DNA from: a virus
Direction: 5' to 3' (one strand)
Virus record (IMG/VR): IMGVR_UViG_3300006853_000555
Coordinates: 36,569 to 100,568 of that record
DNA: 64,000 nt
Shown: positions 1 through 58,591 of the stretch, in pieces
Layout: each line of letters begins with the position of its first letter
Position numbering within the stretch: position 1 is the stretch's first letter
Program-made: the position numbers and the translations under genes
The notes under the pieces: generated by a model
Databases searched by the model: none
Told to the model about the DNA's origin: nothing
What the model saw: only the letters and a program-made list of their open reading frames with translations

Positions 1-3000
1 GAAGTCGCCATGGAAGGCGTGTGGGAAGACCTAACTGACGTTCGGGCCTTTTACATGCCGCCCGGCTTCGGGAACCCCAGCGGCCTTTTCCTTCTTCCGG
101 TTGATCCGGCTCAGAGTGGCAGCGATCGACTTCGGGGCGTATTGCGGCATGAGTTGCTTCATGCCCTCCGCCGAGAGGGGCACTTGCCCCTTAGCGCCTG
201 GAATCGGCTTCTTGGCCATGCGACGGACCTCAACATCCTGGGCCTGGGCTATGCGGACTTCGCCCGCAAAACGCGCGACCCCTACGCGGAAAACTATGAG
301 TCCGCGCCGACCATCCGTGAACTCTACGCTGAGTACAATAAGGACCGCCCGGACTATGACGAGGCAATGGATCAAGAAGCCGTTGCCCACATGCTCGAAT
401 TATATAGCCATGGGGGCCTGACTGAGCAACAGATTGCTCCAATTAGGGATATTCTGGACGCGATTGACAACGGCGCGTTCTCCGAGCCGATCAGTGCGCC
501 CGGCCGCGGCGCGGCGCCCGACGCCGCCCTGCTGGGCAAATGGGGCTCTAAGTCTAGCGCTGAGCCAGAGCCCCAGCCGAAGAAGACCGGCACGCCCGGC
601 TCAGTCTTCGCCGCGATGGACGCAATTAAGAAATATAGCGGCCCCGACGCGATTAATGCGATTGACCAGGCGAAGGGCCTTTTAAAAGAAGTTCATGCCG
701 CTTTTAAAAAGCAATACCCCCAGGTCGGGTGGTCAGGCCTAGCAGATACACCAGAATTTAAGCAGGCGTTCTACGAGAAAATCTTCCAATACACAAAGGG
801 CATGCAAGGCGCGACCAATGCGCCGGAAGTCAATAAATTGTTGATGGCAATTGCCCAGGGGGTGGACCTGCTGGGCGGGACGCCGTTGCACCAAATTGAG
901 GGTGGGACGCCGATCGAACCGGCGCCGAAGAGCGCGGCGGAAGAAGCAGCGCAGCAAAAGCTCATCGACGCCGTTACGAAGATGGTCTCGGCGAAAGCAC
1001 CGGCTGCTGCTCCGGGACAGAATGGCTTCGCTTCGCTCACCCAAGCGGAAGCCGCCGCCAAAAGTCAAGGCCCGCTGATCGCAAAAGCGTTCGAAGACGC
1101 CGTAAATTCAATAAAGACGCCTTACGCCATTGAGCATATCAAAATGGATGGCGTTGCGACCCAGCTGGGCGTCGCTGCGATTAATGCGACGGAACCGGCC
1201 GTGAAGGAGAGCCTCATCAAATTGATGAACGGGCTCTTCGAAGGCGCGAATACGCTGAAGAAGCAGGCGAACGAGAATACTGCTGTCCAGCAGAAGCAAG
1301 TTAACGAAGCAATTGCCAAGAATGCGCTAACCGGCGAAGAGCTCGCTCCGTCGAGCCCCAAGACCCACAAATCCCTCACCGAGGCACTGAATAAATCTCA
1401 GCTGAATTCCTCTCTTAAAAAGATCATCCGGGACAGCATTCAATTTGTCTACAACGAAGTCTTCAAAGACCAAGGCCCCTACACAGATGTCGTAAAAACC
1501 CAGGCCTTTAAGCAGGCTGTTATCGACAATCTACTCCACAATGCAGCGGCTAACGAGAAAGAAGGTTACGCGGCCACCGCCCGCGCAATGCGCGACTTCG
1601 CTGGAACGATTGATACAGCGCCGGATACCACGGCGGCGCCCGCCGTTAGCGTGCCCGCGGGGCTCAGTTTCGATGACCTAATCCCGGCGCCGGACCGCAA
1701 TTACACCTTCGTCGGGAATGCGGGCGGCGGGTCCAAGCCGAAGGAGATCTGGCAGGACGAAGAAGGCAATGAGTATATGTTCAAGCCGAACCTGCCGGAC
1801 CGCCCCTTCTCAGCGCATGGCGAAGCGGCTGGTGGCCATATCTCGCGGCTCATAAACCCGAACGCACCGCGTATCTGGGTGCAAAGCCTCAACGGCCGCC
1901 TGGGCGTCATGCAGGAGATGCTGCCCAATAGCGGGACGCTGCGCGGCACGAAGATGAGCGAGCTTACGCCGCAAGAAATCACTGCGCTCATGCGTGAACA
2001 CGTGGTGGACTGGCTGATTTCCAACCATGACGGCCACTCGAACCAGTTCCTGATTACGGATAAGGGCCTGGTCGGCATCGATAAAGGCCAGGCGTTTAAA
2101 TATATCGGCAAAGACCGCCTGGATACCGATTACCACCCCAACGAGGTGTACGGCGAAGAAGAGCCGATTTACAATAAGCTCTGGCGTGCCCTAACCCAGG
2201 GGAAGCTCGATGGGGTGGTTAAAAAGATCACTGCCCAGGGGGGTGCACAGCTCACGGAAGACGAGGCAGAATTTAAGCGCGTCCAAGAAGAGCTTGAAAG
2301 TGTTACTGAGAACCTGAACGCTCAGCGGGAAGCAAAAAACGAAGTCGAACAGGCGACGAGGAATCGCATTACCGATCTAACTGACCGGGACCACCCCTCG
2401 ATCAAGGAAGTGAGATCTGCACTCAAAGAAGTTTTCGATAAATACGAGCAGCGGTTCCTAGGGGACATTAAAGAAGCCCTGACGCTGAAACCGAATGACT
2501 GGTGGACGCGGGTTAGCGGGAAAGGTGAGCGTTCCTTCCTGATCTCGAAAGATCCAGAGCAAACCATGCTCTGGGCGAACAGATCCTTTCCGCCCGACCT
2601 GCAGCGGACAACTTTTACACCGCAGAATGGTATTAGCGCCGAGGAGGCACAAGAGAAATTTGGCTTCTATCCTTCTACCGATAGCTACCTTGCTCAAACT
2701 GGCGGCCCGGCAGGGGAGGCGAACGCCGCGTTCTTACGCACTCAGGGCTACGACCATGTCACCTTCCCGGATGGAAAAATCGTTGCACTAATCGCGCCGC
2801 AGACTCTAGAGAACTGGCGAGACTACGGCTACAACAAGGAGAAGAACGAGCTCGCTGCTTCGACTTATGAAGCGGTGAATGGCTTTATGGCGGACGTGTT
2901 ACGCCGCGCCGGAGAGCAGCTCGGCAACGAAGAAGGTCGCGCGATTACGGCTGAGCAAGCCGACCTGTTAGAAAACGCTGACCCCAATAAGGTGAAGGCC

Positions 3001-4167
3001 GAGGATTTACAAATCCCGGCACTGAAAGCAGAGTACGAAACGCCCGTTTACAATGCGATGCGTAGCGCGGAAAGCGCGGTCCGTTATGCGCTCACCGCAC
3101 GCTATGACGACGCACTGAATGCGGGCCGCCTACCAGAAATTCGGCCAGACAATAGCCTTTGGGACTTTATTCTTGACCATGTGCGGTCAAAGCCCCGCTC
3201 CGAATTTCCAGCGTTTTTCCAACAGGTCCGTAATCTTTATCCGGAAGCGGGCATGCTTTCCGCAAAGGAGATAAGCGAACTTGAGCGGAAGAAGAGCCAG
3301 CTCAACGTCCGGTTCTACGGCCTGAAACAGGCAGTCGAAGAAGGTCGCGCCGAAGTCGACAATAAGCTCTTCGAACCGGCCTATGAGGCGATCAACACGT
3401 TGCAGAACGGGCTCACGGACGAAGCCTACCTGGGCATGATCCGGCCTTATGCCGAAGCGCGCTTTAAGGGCCGCCCGAAAAACCGCGACGCTTTTCTAGA
3501 TTACGCCTTGCAGCGTAAACACAACCTCGCCAACAAGTTCCATCGCTTTTTCCAAAAGCTAAGTTCGTCCCAAGAACGACGTAAAAAGGCGCTGCAATCT
3601 GTTTACGACTTCGATGAAAACTACAGAAATGACGCCGCTGAGCGGCACGGCCTTAGTGCGGAAGAGTTTGCCGCGATCTACGCCTATACGGGCGACCACT
3701 CCGACGACATTAACCGTGAGTTGCGCCAGGACAAGAAGGCCGGTCGTTCCGACCCGCTCGCTCTGGGCACGGAACGCCTGCGTTGGTTGAGCTACGCGGA
3801 GCTGCTGGAAAGTGCCCTAGAGAAGTTACCGCCCTTCACCGGCGAGGTTTATCGCGGCCAAGATCTCGACGCGGAGGAGCTCGCGAAGTGGAAGCCTGGC
3901 CGGATAATCGTCACGCCCGCGTTCTGGTCGACCAGTTACGACAAGACGAACAGCTTCAGCGGTAAGGTAAAGTTGCATATCCAGTCCCTAACCGGACGGA
4001 ATATCGAGGAACTCTCCTCGCATCAGTCTGAAAAAGAAGTGCTCTTCCCGACGGAACGCCACTTCTTAATCACGCATATCGACGATAGCGGCGCAGACAC
4101 ATATGGTGACCCGCGCACCGATATTTGGTTGCAGGAGCTTGAGGAGATTAATTTTGAAAAACTTTAG
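1..4167 (+). CDS. Giant polyvalent protein: zincin, kinase-like and ADP-ribosyltransferase domains (5' partial)
   Basis: The reading frame is already open at base 1, so the N-terminus lies outside the window; 1,388 codons are visible, and the first ATG is at 10. Residues below are numbered from that ATG. HELLH at 47-51 is a zinc-protease HExxH motif, with a possible third ligand in DQEAVAH about 75 residues later. Residues about 200-550 are helical, Ala/Lys-rich and partly repetitive. A kinase/HipA-like segment spans about 560-740, with NHDGHSNQF and GIDKGQAF as the catalytic and metal-loop candidates. The stretch ending GYDHVTFPDGK (about 910-925) resembles the end of an ART-type domain. The C-terminus carries the ADP-ribosyltransferase R-S-E triad: VYRGQ (about 1280), FWSTS (1305) and EKE (1341). 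This domain mix matches phage polyvalent proteins, which are packaged and injected to modify host targets. Its place just before the lytic transglycosylase and fibre genes fits a virion protein. Delivery and targets are inference. Confidence 0.85.
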   Translation, partial: EVAMEGVWEDLTDVRAFYMPPGFGNPSGLFLLPVDPAQSGSDRLRGVLRHELLHALRREGHLPLSAWNRLLGHATDLNILGLGYADFARKTRDPYAENYESAPTIRELYAEYNKDRPDYDEAMDQEAVAHMLELYSHGGLTEQQIAPIRDILDAIDNGAFSEPISAPGRGAAPDAALLGKWGSKSSAEPEPQPKKTGTPGSVFAAMDAIKKYSGPDAINAIDQAKGLLKEVHAAFKKQYPQVGWSGLADTPEFKQAFYEKIFQYTKGMQGATNAPEVNKLLMAIAQGVDLLGGTPLHQIEGGTPIEPAPKSAAEEAAQQKLIDAVTKMVSAKAPAAAPGQNGFASLTQAEAAAKSQGPLIAKAFEDAVNSIKTPYAIEHIKMDGVATQLGVAAINATEPAVKESLIKLMNGLFEGANTLKKQANENTAVQQKQVNEAIAKNALTGEELAPSSPKTHKSLTEALNKSQLNSSLKKIIRDSIQFVYNEVFKDQGPYTDVVKTQAFKQAVIDNLLHNAAANEKEGYAATARAMRDFAGTIDTAPDTTAAPAVSVPAGLSFDDLIPAPDRNYTFVGNAGGGSKPKEIWQDEEGNEYMFKPNLPDRPFSAHGEAAGGHISRLINPNAPRIWVQSLNGRLGVMQEMLPNSGTLRGTKMSELTPQEITALMREHVVDWLISNHDGHSNQFLITDKGLVGIDKGQAFKYIGKDRLDTDYHPNEVYGEEEPIYNKLWRALTQGKLDGVVKKITAQGGAQLTEDEAEFKRVQEELESVTENLNAQREAKNEVEQATRNRITDLTDRDHPSIKEVRSALKEVFDKYEQRFLGDIKEALTLKPNDWWTRVSGKGERSFLISKDPEQTMLWANRSFPPDLQRTTFTPQNGISAEEAQEKFGFYPSTDSYLAQTGGPAGEANAAFLRTQGYDHVTFPDGKIVALIAPQTLENWRDYGYNKEKNELAASTYEAVNGFMADVLRRAGEQLGNEEGRAITAEQADLLENADPNKVKAEDLQIPALKAEYETPVYNAMRSAESAVRYALTARYDDALNAGRLPEIRPDNSLWDFILDHVRSKPRSEFPAFFQQVRNLYPEAGMLSAKEISELERKKSQLNVRFYGLKQAVEEGRAEVDNKLFEPAYEAINTLQNGLTDEAYLGMIRPYAEARFKGRPKNRDAFLDYALQRKHNLANKFHRFFQKLSSSQERRKKALQSVYDFDENYRNDAAERHGLSAEEFAAIYAYTGDHSDDINRELRQDKKAGRSDPLALGTERLRWLSYAELLESALEKLPPFTGEVYRGQDLDAEELAKWKPGRIIVTPAFWSTSYDKTNSFSGKVKLHIQSLTGRNIEELSSHQSEKEVLFPTERHFLITHIDDSGADTYGDPRTDIWLQELEEINFEKL

Positions 4168-4446: not shown

Positions 4447-5370
4447 ATGGCGATTGAACAGCGCATAATCAATGCTGAGAGCGATGGCCGTCGCCACGCA
4501 CGCAACCCGAATTCCTCGGCCTACGGCCCTGGGCAGTTCATTAGCTCAACTTGGCTAAACATGATTGCCCGTTATCGTCCAGACCTGATGCAGGGGCGCA
4601 GCCAGGCCGAGGTGCTCGCGCTACGGTCCGACCCAGCGCTCAACGAAGAGATGACCAAGCGCTATGGCGAGGAAAACGGCCGCTACCTAGCTGGCCGCGG
4701 CTACGCGCCGAGCGACGAGAATATTTCGCTCTCCCACTTCGCCGGACCGCAAGGCGCCGCGGCGCTCCTGGCGAATCCAGAAAAACCGGCACGTGAGCTG
4801 CTTAGTCCCGCAGCCATTAAGGCGAACCCATTCCTGGCTAATTGGACTGGCGCCGACGTAATCAACTGGGCGGGTAAGCGCATCGCCGAGCCCGGCACCG
4901 AAGTCGCGAAGACCCCGCGCGCGGCTACGCCGAGCGACCCATTTAACACCGCGGACGTGGTCGCTTCGATGGCGCCTACCGCGGCTTCCCCCACAACCCC
5001 TCCCGCGGCGGCCCAGCCCGCCCCAGCCCAGAAGGAACAAGCCGTGCTCCCTTTCCTCGCCTCCCTCTTCGAATCCGGTGCAGGCGCCGCGGCGGGCGGC
5101 GCGGGTGTAGGCTCCCTGGGCTCGGCTCTTTCTGGTAGCGGCGGCTTGCTCTCCTCGCTCTTCGGCGAAGGCGGCTTCGACTTCGGCAAGATGATGAACA
5201 GCTCCGGCCAGCCGGACCCCGCAAACCCGCTCGCGGGTGCCCAGGTGCCGCAAACCCCTGCAATGCAGCGTCCGCAAGTTGACATGAGCCGCTTGCAAGC
5301 CCTGCTGGCCAACCGGCCGACGCTTGGCCAGGGCCCAGGGTTGCTCTCCAGCCCGACGATGCTTCGCTGA
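4447..5370 (+). CDS. Lytic transglycosylase (SLT-type), virion-associated peptidoglycan hydrolase
   Basis: The first 150 residues match the lytic transglycosylase fold. IINAESDG carries the catalytic Glu11, followed by SAYGPGQFISSTW (the family's G-x-x-Q-F-x-x-x-T-W block) and LSHFAGP. These enzymes cleave MurNAc-GlcNAc bonds with 1,6-anhydro product formation. The remaining half (about 160-307) is Pro/Ala/Gly-rich and low-complexity, so it is probably a linker or virion anchor. The catalytic Glu is only 10 residues from the ATG, and the SD is weak (GGCAGGGG about 12 nt upstream). Position between the polyvalent protein and the fibre genes suggests it is ejected with the DNA to locally open the cell wall, not the late endolysin, which is at 48.7 kb. 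Confidence 0.85.
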   Translation: MAIEQRIINAESDGRRHARNPNSSAYGPGQFISSTWLNMIARYRPDLMQGRSQAEVLALRSDPALNEEMTKRYGEENGRYLAGRGYAPSDENISLSHFAGPQGAAALLANPEKPARELLSPAAIKANPFLANWTGADVINWAGKRIAEPGTEVAKTPRAATPSDPFNTADVVASMAPTAASPTTPPAAAQPAPAQKEQAVLPFLASLFESGAGAAAGGAGVGSLGSALSGSGGLLSSLFGEGGFDFGKMMNSSGQPDPANPLAGAQVPQTPAMQRPQVDMSRLQALLANRPTLGQGPGLLSSPTMLR

Positions 5371-5411
5371 GGCCACATTGATAGCGCGTTATGGCGCTTA
5401 TGGAGTGAAAT

Positions 5412-6365
5412 ATGACGCTCTACAAATGGTCCCGGACGGCCGCTGATAACGACGATATCGATTCGACCATCGATTGGGCGGAAGGTATGCCGCCGTCCAA
5501 CGTGAACAACTCTTCCCGCGCGGAAATGGCGGCCGTCGCTAAGTGGCGGGACGACACCTCCGGCCTCGCCGTTACGGGGGGTAGTTCAACAGCTTACACC
5601 TATACGTCCTTTCAGGTTACGACGGCGCTCCTGGACGGTTTTAGCGTCACGCTCCGGATGCATACCACGTCTGGTGCCGCGCCGACCCTCAATGTGGATG
5701 CCCAGGGGGCGAAGGCAGTCCGCACCCACAGCGGTACGGCCGTGGCGACGGGCGCGCTGCTCGCCGGGGCCACGCACAAATTCACTTACGATGCCGGTGA
5801 CGATTGCTGGTACGTTAACAGCTTTTTCAACATTGGCGTTATTGATCTAGCCACGCAGGTTACAGGCACACTTTCCCTCACCAACGGCGGCACAGGCCAG
5901 ACATCGGCTTCTGCCGCATTCGGCGCACTGAAACAGGCAGCGGATGAGACGAACACGGGCGTGCTCGACCTCGCGACTGACGCCGAAATCAGGGCCGCTA
6001 CGACCGGCGCGCATGCTCTTACTGCTGCTGACCTGGAAAGCGCGGCTGCCTTAGTGACGATCACCGATGGCGCGACGATAACGCCAGACTGGGACGCTTT
6101 CATAAATGGCCAGATTACGCTGGCCGGCAATAGGACGCTGAACGCCCCGACCAATTTGCAAACCATGGTGTGGCGCCAGATTTGGATTCAGGGCAATGAC
6201 GGCACTGATAGAACCCTTACGCTAGGGGCGGGCTATCTGGGGCCGAACGTGGCGTTGTGGAATGCATTGACGTTCAACAGCAGCACCAAGCGTTATATCA
6301 TGGGGCTGCTCGCATTAAATAGCTCAAACGCCGTGCTTGTTGCCCCACCTCTTGGACCGTTCTGA
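5412..6365 (+). CDS. Tail fibre / receptor-binding structural protein
   Basis: The N-terminus (NDDIDSTIDWAEGMPPSNVNNSSRAEMA then KWRDD) is the conserved opening of many alphaproteobacterial phage fibre proteins, probably the virion-attachment part. The middle is beta-rich with Gly/Thr repeats, and LTNGGTGQTSASAAFGALKQ is a common fibre linker motif. There are 317 residues and no enzymatic motif. The SD GGAG lies 8 nt before the ATG. The preceding gap (5371-5411) has a small AGCGC/GCGCT hairpin. The gene ends in a one-base overlap (TGATG) with the next, so the two are translationally coupled. Confidence 0.75.
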   Translation: MTLYKWSRTAADNDDIDSTIDWAEGMPPSNVNNSSRAEMAAVAKWRDDTSGLAVTGGSSTAYTYTSFQVTTALLDGFSVTLRMHTTSGAAPTLNVDAQGAKAVRTHSGTAVATGALLAGATHKFTYDAGDDCWYVNSFFNIGVIDLATQVTGTLSLTNGGTGQTSASAAFGALKQAADETNTGVLDLATDAEIRAATTGAHALTAADLESAAALVTITDGATITPDWDAFINGQITLAGNRTLNAPTNLQTMVWRQIWIQGNDGTDRTLTLGAGYLGPNVALWNALTFNSSTKRYIMGLLALNSSNAVLVAPPLGPF

Positions 6366-12477: not shown

Positions 12478-12822
12478 AAGGGGTAAACTCCCTGTGAGGT
12501 TTTCGTCGGTAGGGGCGTACCGGGGAGGGACTCGAACCCTCCTGGCCCCGAAACAGGGCCGCCTAAGGGGAATCGAACCCCTCCGCCCGCAAGGGCTTCC
12601 GCAACCAGCGCTCGGCACATAGAACCCTGCGCAGACTGGGACAAGCCCAGCTCCCGGTGGTCAACTTGGTCTTACAACCCGAACGCAATACCGGAACGGG
12701 ATCAACTGCCAAATCATATTCCATATCGGGCGTCTAAATCTCAAGGGGAGCTACGTAGTCTCGCCCCGGATCGCTGCGCAGGGGTTTTCAGCGGGCGGTG
12801 CACCGCGCCGCTAAAGCGGATC
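12478..12822 (-). other. 345-nt gap with two tRNA-like T-arm motifs
   Basis: Reading the minus strand, two T-arm/acceptor-like segments occur back to back: GGGGTTCGATTCCCCTTAGG (about 12566-12585) and GGAGGGTTCGAGTCCCTCC (about 12525-12543). The first is preceded by GCCCTTGCGGGC, which could be a class II variable arm. No matching 5' acceptor strand was found for either, so these look like tRNA remnants or 3' halves. The rest of the gap has no open frame I trust. Confidence 0.35.
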
Positions 12823-57376: not shown

Positions 57377-57450
57377 GGAATGGTGGCAGAATAGTTATGC
57401 GGCGGCCTGCAAAGCCGTGGAAGCGGGTGCAAGTCCCGTCCATTTCTCCA
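57377..57450 (+). tRNA. tRNA-Cys(GCA)
   Basis: Acceptor GGAATGG/CCATTTC, D-stem GCA/TGC, anticodon stem GCGGC/GCCGT with loop CTGCAAA (anticodon GCA) and T-arm CGGG-TGCAAGT-CCCG. Discriminator U and encoded CCA fit bacterial tRNA-Cys. Confidence 0.85.
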
Positions 57451-57453
57451 ATT

Positions 57454-57530
57454 GGTCCCTTCGTCTAGCGGTCCAGGATATTGGACTTTCACTCCAAAGG
57501 TCGCGGGTTCGAATCCCGCAGGGATCACCA
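57454..57530 (+). tRNA. tRNA-Glu(TTC)
   Basis: Acceptor GGTCCCT/AGGGATC, anticodon stem TTGGA/TCCAA with loop CTTTCAC (anticodon TTC), T-arm GCGGG-TTCGAAT-CCCGC, discriminator A and encoded CCA. Three bases after tRNA-Cys. Confidence 0.85.
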
Positions 57531-58043: not shown

Positions 58044-58119
58044 GCCACGGTAGCTCAGTTGGTAGAGCGCCGGTCTGAAGTACCGGAGGTCGTTAACTCG
58101 AAATTAACCCGTGGTACCA
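58044..58119 (+). tRNA. tRNA-Phe(GAA)
   Basis: Acceptor GCCACGG/CCGTGGT (first pair G-U), D-arm GCTC-AGTTGGTA-GAGC, anticodon stem CCGGT/ACCGG with loop CTGAAGT (anticodon GAA), T-arm GTTAA-CTCGAAA-TTAAC, discriminator A and encoded CCA. Confidence 0.8.
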
Positions 58120-58125
58120 ATTATT

Positions 58126-58200
58126 GCCGGGGTAGCTCAGTGGTAGAGCGTCCTCGTTTACAGGGGAAGGTCGTCGGTTCAACTCCCTCTCCCGGCACCA
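58126..58200 (+). tRNA. tRNA-like gene with anticodon-loop GTTTACA (TTA, or shifted Val TAC)
   Basis: Acceptor GCCGGGG/TCCCGGC with A and encoded CCA, D-arm GCTC-AGTGGTA-GAGC, anticodon stem TCCTC/GGGGA. The seven-base loop GTTTACA puts TTA at 34-36, which would read UAA, but base 37 is C. The T-stem GTCGG/CCCTC has two mismatches. It shares its body with the 58207-58360 gene, whose restored loop reads TAC (Val). It may be a suppressor-type tRNA or a drifting tRNA-Val pseudogene. Confidence 0.45.
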
Positions 58201-58206
58201 AATTTC

Positions 58207-58360
58207 ACTAGGGTAGCTCAGAGGTAGAGCGTCCTCGTTATTCCGTGTAGCTCAGTCCGGTAGAGCGCAGCGCTGATAACGCTGAGGTCGGTGGTTCGAA
58301 CCCATCCACGGAAACCACACATGAGGAAGGTCGTCGGTTCGAATCCCTCTCCTAGTACCA
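58207..58360 (+). tRNA. tRNA-Val(TAC)-like gene split by an internal tRNA-Ile
   Basis: The 5' part (58207-58240) has acceptor ACTAGGG, D-arm and anticodon stem TCCTC-GTTA. The 3' part (58318-58360) has stem GAGGA, the T-arm and acceptor TCCTAGT with A and CCA. Stems pair perfectly across the gap. Between them sits a complete tRNA-Ile. Removing a 79-nt segment would leave loop GTTACAT with anticodon TAC. The T-stem GTCGG/CCCTC has two mismatches, as in the neighbour at 58126. Confidence 0.6.
58241..58317 (+). tRNA. tRNA-Ile(GAT), nested inside the tRNA-Val-like gene
   Basis: Acceptor TTCCGTG/CACGGAA, D-arm GCTC-...-GAGC, anticodon stem CAGCG/CGCTG with loop CTGATAA (anticodon GAT), T-arm GGTGG-TTCGAAC-CCATC, discriminator A and encoded CCA. 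All arms pair, so it is probably functional. It occupies the anticodon loop of the surrounding tRNA. Confidence 0.85.
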
Positions 58361-58363
58361 TTT

Positions 58364-58438
58364 TCCCGTGTAGCATAATGGTAATGCGCCCGGCTGTTAA
58401 CCGGGTGACTGCTGGTTCGAATCCAGCCGCGGGAGCCA
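58364..58438 (+). tRNA. tRNA-Asn(GTT)
   Basis: Acceptor TCCCGTG/CGCGGGA, anticodon stem CCCGG/CCGGG with loop CTGTTAA (anticodon GTT), T-arm GCTGG-TTCGAAT-CCAGC, discriminator G and encoded CCA. All arms pair. Confidence 0.85.
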
Positions 58439-58442
58439 GTTT

Positions 58443-58516
58443 GGACGCGTGGCTAAGTGGTTTAAAGCACTCGACTTTTAATCGAGCGATCGCGGGTTCG
58501 AATCCCGCCGCGTCTT
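58443..58516 (+). tRNA. tRNA-Lys(TTT)
   Basis: Acceptor GGACGCG/CGCGTCT, D-arm with TGGCTAAGTGGTTTAAAGCA, anticodon stem CTCGA/TCGAG with loop CTTTTAA (anticodon TTT), T-arm GCGGG-TTCGAAT-CCCGC. CCA is not encoded; the next tRNA begins two bases later. It could be the acceptor of host CCA-adding enzyme. Confidence 0.8.
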
Positions 58517-58517
58517 C

Positions 58518-58591
58518 TCCCCCTTCGTCTAGTGGTAGGACACAAGGCTTTGGACTTTGAGACTGAGGTTCGAATCCTCGAGGGGGAACCA
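58518..58591 (+). tRNA. tRNA-Gln(TTG)
   Basis: Acceptor TCCCCCT/AGGGGGA, anticodon stem CAAGG/CTTTG with loop CTTTGGA (anticodon TTG), T-arm GAGG-TTCGAAT-CCTC, discriminator A and encoded CCA. Last tRNA of the array. Confidence 0.8.

Follow-up and report, generated by a model that had tools for sequence, protein, structure and literature searches.

A tRNA gene nested in the anticodon loop of another phage tRNA gene, and similar insertions in unrelated viruses that look like a new kind of tRNA intron

Results

Architecture of the nested locus

The window, i.e., the whole stretch of 64,000 nucleotides that was analyzed, belongs to a 100,568-base virus contig carrying phage genes, such as those for a P22-like portal, terminase, capsid, DNA polymerase, ribonucleotide reductase, and hypermodified-base enzymes. 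At positions 58207–58360, a complete tRNA-Ile(GAT) gene of 77 nt, including its own CCA, interrupts the anticodon of a Val-type tRNA gene. The tRNA genes of this region are the following.

57377–57450, plus strand: tRNA-Cys(GCA) (ARAGORN, Rfam)
57454–57530, plus strand: tRNA-Glu(TTC) (ARAGORN, Rfam)
58044–58119, plus strand: tRNA-Phe(GAA)-like gene, missed by ARAGORN (Rfam, 61.1 bits over 58044–58116)
58126–58200, plus strand: paralogue of the outer tRNA that has no insert, with loop GTTTACA and the formal anticodon UUA (ARAGORN, Rfam)
58207–58240, plus strand: 5' half of the outer Val-type tRNA, ACTAGGGTAGCTCAGAGGTAGAGCGTCCTCGTTA, with the acceptor 5' strand, D-arm, anticodon-stem 5' strand, and loop GTTA (sequence, pairing with the 3' half)
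58241–58317, plus strand: inner tRNA-Ile(GAT), 77 nt, encoded CCA (ARAGORN; Rfam RF00005, 68.8 bits)
58318–58360, plus strand: 3' half of the outer tRNA, CACATGAGGAAGGTCGTCGGTTCGAATCCCTCTCCTAGTACCA, with CACAT, the anticodon-stem 3' strand, T-arm, acceptor 3' strand, and ACCA
58364–58438, plus strand: tRNA-Asn(GTT) (ARAGORN, Rfam)
58443–58517, plus strand: tRNA-Lys(TTT) (ARAGORN, Rfam)
58518–58591, plus strand: tRNA-Gln(TTG) (ARAGORN, Rfam)

That a complete tRNA gene lies inside the anticodon loop of another had been proposed in a preliminary description of this DNA, and the sequence, ARAGORN, and Rfam all bear it out. As reported there, the acceptor halves of the outer tRNA form seven of seven pairs with one G-U, its anticodon stem TCCTC/GAGGA is fully paired (5/5), and the insert is a tRNA-Ile(GAT) with CCA according to both ARAGORN and the Rfam covariance model. 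With GTTA (position 35) in front of it and CCA at its end, the inner tRNA fits an insert running from acceptor nucleotide 1 to CCA at positions 34–36 of the outer tRNA, and the loop remainder CACAT that follows is 2 nt longer than a 7-nt loop needs. The intron mode of ARAGORN (-io) missed the nested layout and was replaced by an in-silico removal test. Paired D-arms at the spacing of this locus occurred in none of 100 shuffles of the window. Folding of the whole precursor revealed no unusual stability (z −0.6), and its minimum-free-energy fold is not two cloverleaves. The same nested locus is present in a second IMG/VR contig, 3300050509_000447, with one mismatch in 14.8 kb, and this contig and the window record may represent one viral population.

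Two other regions of the window deserve mention. On the minus strand at 12514–12605, the tRNA-Ser(CGA) called by ARAGORN is doubtful, its anticodon being the TTCGA of a T-arm-like hairpin, with no Rfam call; a second T-arm lies 40 nt further on, and the region is possibly a tRNA 3'-end-like attachment site. Positions 10–4167 encode a virion-type protein of 1385 amino acids with an ADP-ribosyltransferase domain at its C-terminus.

State of the outer tRNA

Deletion of the inner tRNA together with 2 nt (79 nt in all) yields the loop GTTACAT, and ARAGORN then calls a tRNA-Val(TAC) across the junction, as had been anticipated. Deletion of exactly 77 nt leaves GTTA+CACAT, a loop of 9 nt, for which ARAGORN returns a register-shifted call with the anticodon ACA, a loop TTACACA with C37, and a stem CCTCG/TGAGG. 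The locus was not filed with the strict set defined below because exact removal does not produce a cognate loop of exactly 7 nt, even though the architecture is shared.

Furthermore, the T-stem of the outer tRNA, GTCGG/CCCTC, holds only three of five pairs. Its two mismatches also occur in the upstream paralogue at 58126–58200, and neither they nor this paralogy had been noticed in the preliminary description. The joined outer tRNA and the paralogue are identical at 61 of 75 positions and differ at three acceptor pairs, each changed on both strands, so pairing was kept after the duplication, in a period that may predate the insertion. The formal anticodon UUA of the paralogue would read the stop codon UAA, and this tRNA has C37.

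In the 100.6-kb genome of the window phage, no RNA ligase of the T4 or Rnl2/Rnl5 type, RtcB, or PNK was detected, one of the searches being weak, with a control that gave no match. The nearest relative genome (G001) does encode an RNA ligase, and its tRNAs differ from those of the window phage. This relative also contains an odd tRNA of 114 nt with an insert in the anticodon region (L065, 1485–1598; Rfam, 43.5 bits) and a short tmRNA-like stretch scoring 29 bits, below gathering (L065, 422–605).

Recurrence in other viral contigs

A search of other phages for the nested layout had been suggested. Scans of IMG/VR for pairs of D-arms or of T-arms that are abnormally spaced, followed by the in-silico removal test, identified nested tRNAs in unrelated viral contigs, all of them metagenomic, while INPHARED, which gathers isolated phages, holds no record covering a nested or mini-intron query by at least 80%. 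As the scans selected for paired D-arms or T-arm/CCA pairs, the locus counts given here are lower bounds. To enter the strict set, a locus needed an insert with an acceptor-like 5' strand and, at the 3' end, a T-arm, the acceptor partner, and NCCA. Once this insert was cut out exactly, the outer tRNA had to show a loop of 7 nt with U33, all five anticodon-stem pairs, and at least 6/7 acceptor pairs. Among the matches listed, at least seven unrelated viral loci of IMG/VR belong to this set, all with 7/7 outer acceptors.

L349: tRNA-Phe in Arg-TCT, insert of 76 nt
L318: tRNA-Asn in Lys-TTT, insert of 76 nt
L341: tRNA in Asn-GTT, insert of 75 nt
L581: insert in Lys-TTT, 86 nt
L515: mini-tRNA in Lys-TTT, 44 nt
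L512: mini-tRNA in Ile-TAT, 44 nt
L528: mini-tRNA in Gln-TTG, 45 nt

In these loci, a perfect outer tRNA results when the insert is taken out at its mature tRNA ends, and nesting recurs with whole tRNAs or mini-tRNAs inserted at positions 34–36. Where the outer tRNA of a viral locus is complete, the insert enters the anticodon loop, usually following position 34 or 35, in a D-arm scan that permitted junctions at about 28–48. When ten control terminal triplets were submitted to the strict test, none gave a locus among the matches listed, except GTA with one. Over loop sizes of 3–14 and among the matches listed, CCA-tailed inserts peak at size 7 (9 loci, versus 0–4 elsewhere), and non-CCA tails give 0–6 loci per loop size.

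The mini-tRNAs consist of a 7-bp acceptor, a linker of 9–10 nt, a 5-bp T-arm with the loop TTCAACT, and NCCA. The L512 and L515 inserts fold in this way with a 9-nt linker, the same pairs are found in L528 by inspection, and the stem sequences differ among the three. Across the insert, the Rfam tRNA model matches L515 (54.0 bits), L512 (51.8), L528 (50.0), and L581 (51.9) above gathering. In L341, a degenerate inner tRNA (35 bits, T-loop TTTGAGT) sits in a perfect outer tRNA. The tRNA array of L341 also holds a GOLLD RNA (5016–5531, 155 bits) about 1 kb from the nested tRNA, and the sole mismatch in 4775 aligned bases between L243 and L349 falls in the inner-tRNA CCA, which is CCC in L243.

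Inexact and other inserts

Inexact nesting was found in the window copy (G000), L210, L340, L345/L377, L325, and L359. In two further viral loci, L332 and L375, a 5' tRNA fragment directly precedes a tRNA with no 3' half. L255, L274, L306, L326, and L362 were set aside as loose, with extra sequence, fragments, or weak stems.

Several other viral tRNAs bear inserts of a different make. In L301 (3871–4022 and 5005–5158) and on the minus strand of L540, Thr(TGT) and Lys(TTT) tRNAs contain anticodon-loop inserts of 79–92 nt, with a 5' hairpin of the ATGG..CCAT type followed by a minihelix, a 3' border at or near CCA, and exact 7-nt exon loops. Two Lys(TTT)-type tRNAs have inserts of 58 nt (L519, 6970–7100; Rfam, 56.4 bits) and 48 nt (L048, 5378–5498; Rfam, 59.8 bits) that leave exact 7-nt loops and are without a CCA end; the interrupted tRNAs of L301, L048, and L519 score 54–60 bits with Rfam across the insert. 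The inserts of L276, L565, L266, and L285 share a common hairpin like ATCCTGATNAGGAT, then CAGCA or CTGCA, with no obvious tRNA-like ends. On the minus strand of L355, a tRNA spans 276 nt, and the 3' part resembles a group I core by eye (AGTCCAGACCACAAA), with no Rfam call at gathering score.

Bacterial hits, mostly from Patescibacteria, were rejected as instances of the same phenomenon, their junctions being scattered or in the D-loop and often flanked by palindromes; unlike the viral junctions, they are spread. In L420, L472, L483, L386, L423, L468, and L475, many of them from Patescibacteria, a tRNA lies between long palindromes (e.g., CCCCCAC..GTGGGGG or CCTGCCCGCC..GGCAGGCGGGG) within a second tRNA, in its D-loop or anticodon arm. 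This pattern was matched in at least 16 of 287 genomes of one phylum, and L468 has two tRNA inserts within one tRNA.

RNA-repair genes

An Rnl5/DRB0094-like ligase (phrog_968, E about 1e-65) and an HD-domain kinase (phrog_505/bacter_Pnkp-like) are found in each of the genomes of L349, L341, and L581; in L349 and L581, no more than about 3 kb separates the two genes. Both are also present in L301, which has the related insert type. A ligase together with PNK occurs in 4 of 22 other viral records and in none of the six inexact cases, an enrichment with a one-sided Fisher value of 0.005–0.015 that comes from small numbers and a comparison chosen after seeing the data. RNA ligase alone is not enriched, as nine of the 22 background records have one. 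The comparison covers the large-contig cases, the contigs of L318, L515, L512, and L528 being too short to judge.

Discussion

Relation to known systems

The preliminary description knew of no bacterial precedent for such a nested tRNA, which holds for the literature, nothing on nested or interrupted phage tRNAs being found in the full text of open-access papers; the layout itself does have counterparts on the other viral contigs. A 2014 review noted that, although phages have many tRNA genes, every phage intron seen up to then lay in a protein gene (PMC3984707).

Group I introns in the tRNA genes of bacteria, among them cyanobacterial tRNA-Leu UAA, likewise interrupt the anticodon loop between exons that pair as a tRNA. 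They are, however, large self-splicing ribozymes, whereas the insert is a tRNA of 77 nt in the window, the exact-loop inserts range from 44 to 86 nt, and a ribozyme core is missing: Rfam reported no group I intron at gathering score or at E ≤ 10 for the window, and none for the intron-bearing loci tested. The introns handled by the archaeal and eukaryal splicing endonuclease are also short, located in the anticodon loop, and removed by proteins before ligation, but their usual site is 37/38 with a bulge-helix-bulge, in contrast to positions 34–36, tRNA-like ends, and CCA in the viral inserts; no splicing-endonuclease family is among the Pfam matches of the window phage.

A break in the anticodon sealed by a kinase and a ligase in infected cells is known from the T4 Pnkp/Rnl1 repair of PrrC-cut tRNA-Lys and from the wobble-excising tRNase RloC (PMC10264068, PMC2610378). 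There, a defense nuclease makes the break, whereas here the maturation of an encoded insert would make it. In tRNA-dependent lysogeny, phages recombine at the anticodon regions of tRNAs and phage tRNAs replace the disrupted host ones (PMC10865867). That process is a site-specific prophage integration with a shared core, whereas the window has a small insert in the phage's own tRNA, and GTTA and CACAT at its junctions share no att-type duplicated core. Archaea and algae also have discontinuous tRNA genes, split or permuted, whose parts are rejoined at the RNA level, but in the window, the two halves keep their order and flank another tRNA within one transcript. A split tRNA was therefore rejected, as both halves flank the insert at one locus, and so was a permuted tRNA, as the 5' half lies upstream of the 3' half in the normal order.

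A possible excision by tRNA end processing

The nested and mini-tRNA insertions of unrelated viruses resemble a type of tRNA intron that has not been described before. The features recognized by RNase P and by the enzymes of 3' maturation are the stacked acceptor and T-stem and the CCA. In cutting, RNase P generates a leader that ends in 3'-OH and a tRNA with a 5'-phosphate, and a 3' endonuclease would give the 3' half a 5'-phosphate, i.e., ligatable ends. In the pathway that we infer, RNase P would cut at nucleotide 1 of the insert and a putative 3'-end activity after its CCA, leaving outer halves with a 3'-OH and a 5'-phosphate that would be kept together by the acceptor and anticodon stems until an HD/PNK-type kinase and the Rnl5-like ligase seal them. 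Excision is favored on three grounds: full stems and an exact cognate loop would not have to be preserved in a dead outer tRNA; in L341, decay has struck the inner tRNA and left the outer one perfect; and mini-tRNAs keep the parts recognized by processing enzymes and drop those used in decoding.

Our preferred reading, at slightly better than even chances, is that these inserts are tRNA-like introns cut by tRNA end processing and rejoined by RNA repair, the window copy being decayed or inefficient. The broader proposal, that phages possess a new class of tRNA introns, made of a tRNA or a CCA-ended mini-tRNA, excised by the end-maturation machinery and sealed by phage kinase and ligase, with nested full tRNAs giving two tRNAs per gene, is more tentative and falls somewhat short of an even chance.

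For the window phage itself, the inner tRNA-Ile is probably produced and functional, and its maturation would necessarily cut the outer tRNA. The outer tRNA is probably a relic, best regarded as a class member that has decayed or become inefficient, in view of its 9-nt loop, its mispaired T-stem, and the lack of a detected ligase; its rejoining is doubtful, and its halves would probably no longer be joined correctly. The preliminary description had hesitated between a broken tRNA and a precursor joined by a ligase. The joined precursor is supported for the wider class by exact boundaries, intact outer tRNAs, mini-tRNAs, and repair genes, and the broken tRNA is the likelier state of the window copy.

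Weighing of alternatives

In one alternative, tRNA genes would occasionally insert into others in phage arrays, and the outer tRNAs would simply have been disrupted, with no splicing anywhere. The defects of the window copy just mentioned and the other inexact cases agree with such a view, as do L332 and L375 with their lone 5' fragments. It does not account, however, for the exact mature ends, 7-nt loops, and intact outer tRNAs of seven unrelated loci, for mini-tRNA inserts reduced to acceptor, T-arm, and CCA, or for intact outer tRNAs around a degenerate inner one, and we consider it unlikely, albeit a serious contender. Conversely, the outer tRNA of the window might also be spliced and functional, through a cut 2 nt after the CCA or a trimming of 2 nt, to give GTTACAT and a tRNA-Val(UAC) with the help of a host ligase. 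Removal of 79 nt does restore U33, the anticodon UAC, and A37, and the fully paired acceptor and anticodon stems, with three acceptor pairs that differ from the paralogue on both sides, point the same way. Yet exact members of the class need no trimming, no ligase was found in the phage, the T-stem is mismatched, and the acceptor changes may predate the insertion, which leaves this scenario rather improbable.

An origin at the RNA level without function, in which a tRNA cut at the anticodon by a defense nuclease was mis-ligated around a mature tRNA, copied to DNA, and fixed, would fit the junctions at 34–36, which resemble anticodon-nuclease cut sites, the mature-tRNA ends of the inserts, and the RNA ligases carried by phages. 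It requires reverse transcription, however, no reverse-transcriptase family is among the Pfam matches of the window phage, and the mini-tRNA inserts stay unexplained, so that we hold it to be very improbable. Even less credit goes to an assembly or sequencing artefact, which the preliminary description had named as the event that would undo the nesting: the evidence does come from metagenomic contigs only, but the second contig carrying the window locus makes misassembly unlikely, similar layouts recur in many contigs, and the junctions are exact and respect the structure.

Implications

If the preferred reading is true, tRNA-like inserts would represent a new mode of RNA splicing, in which the intron is defined by tRNA mimicry and removed by RNase P, an enzyme that, to our knowledge, is not known to act in splicing. 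It would also account for the RNA ligase and kinase of some phages whose tRNAs are interrupted, and it would mean that tRNA finders miss or misread interrupted phage tRNAs.
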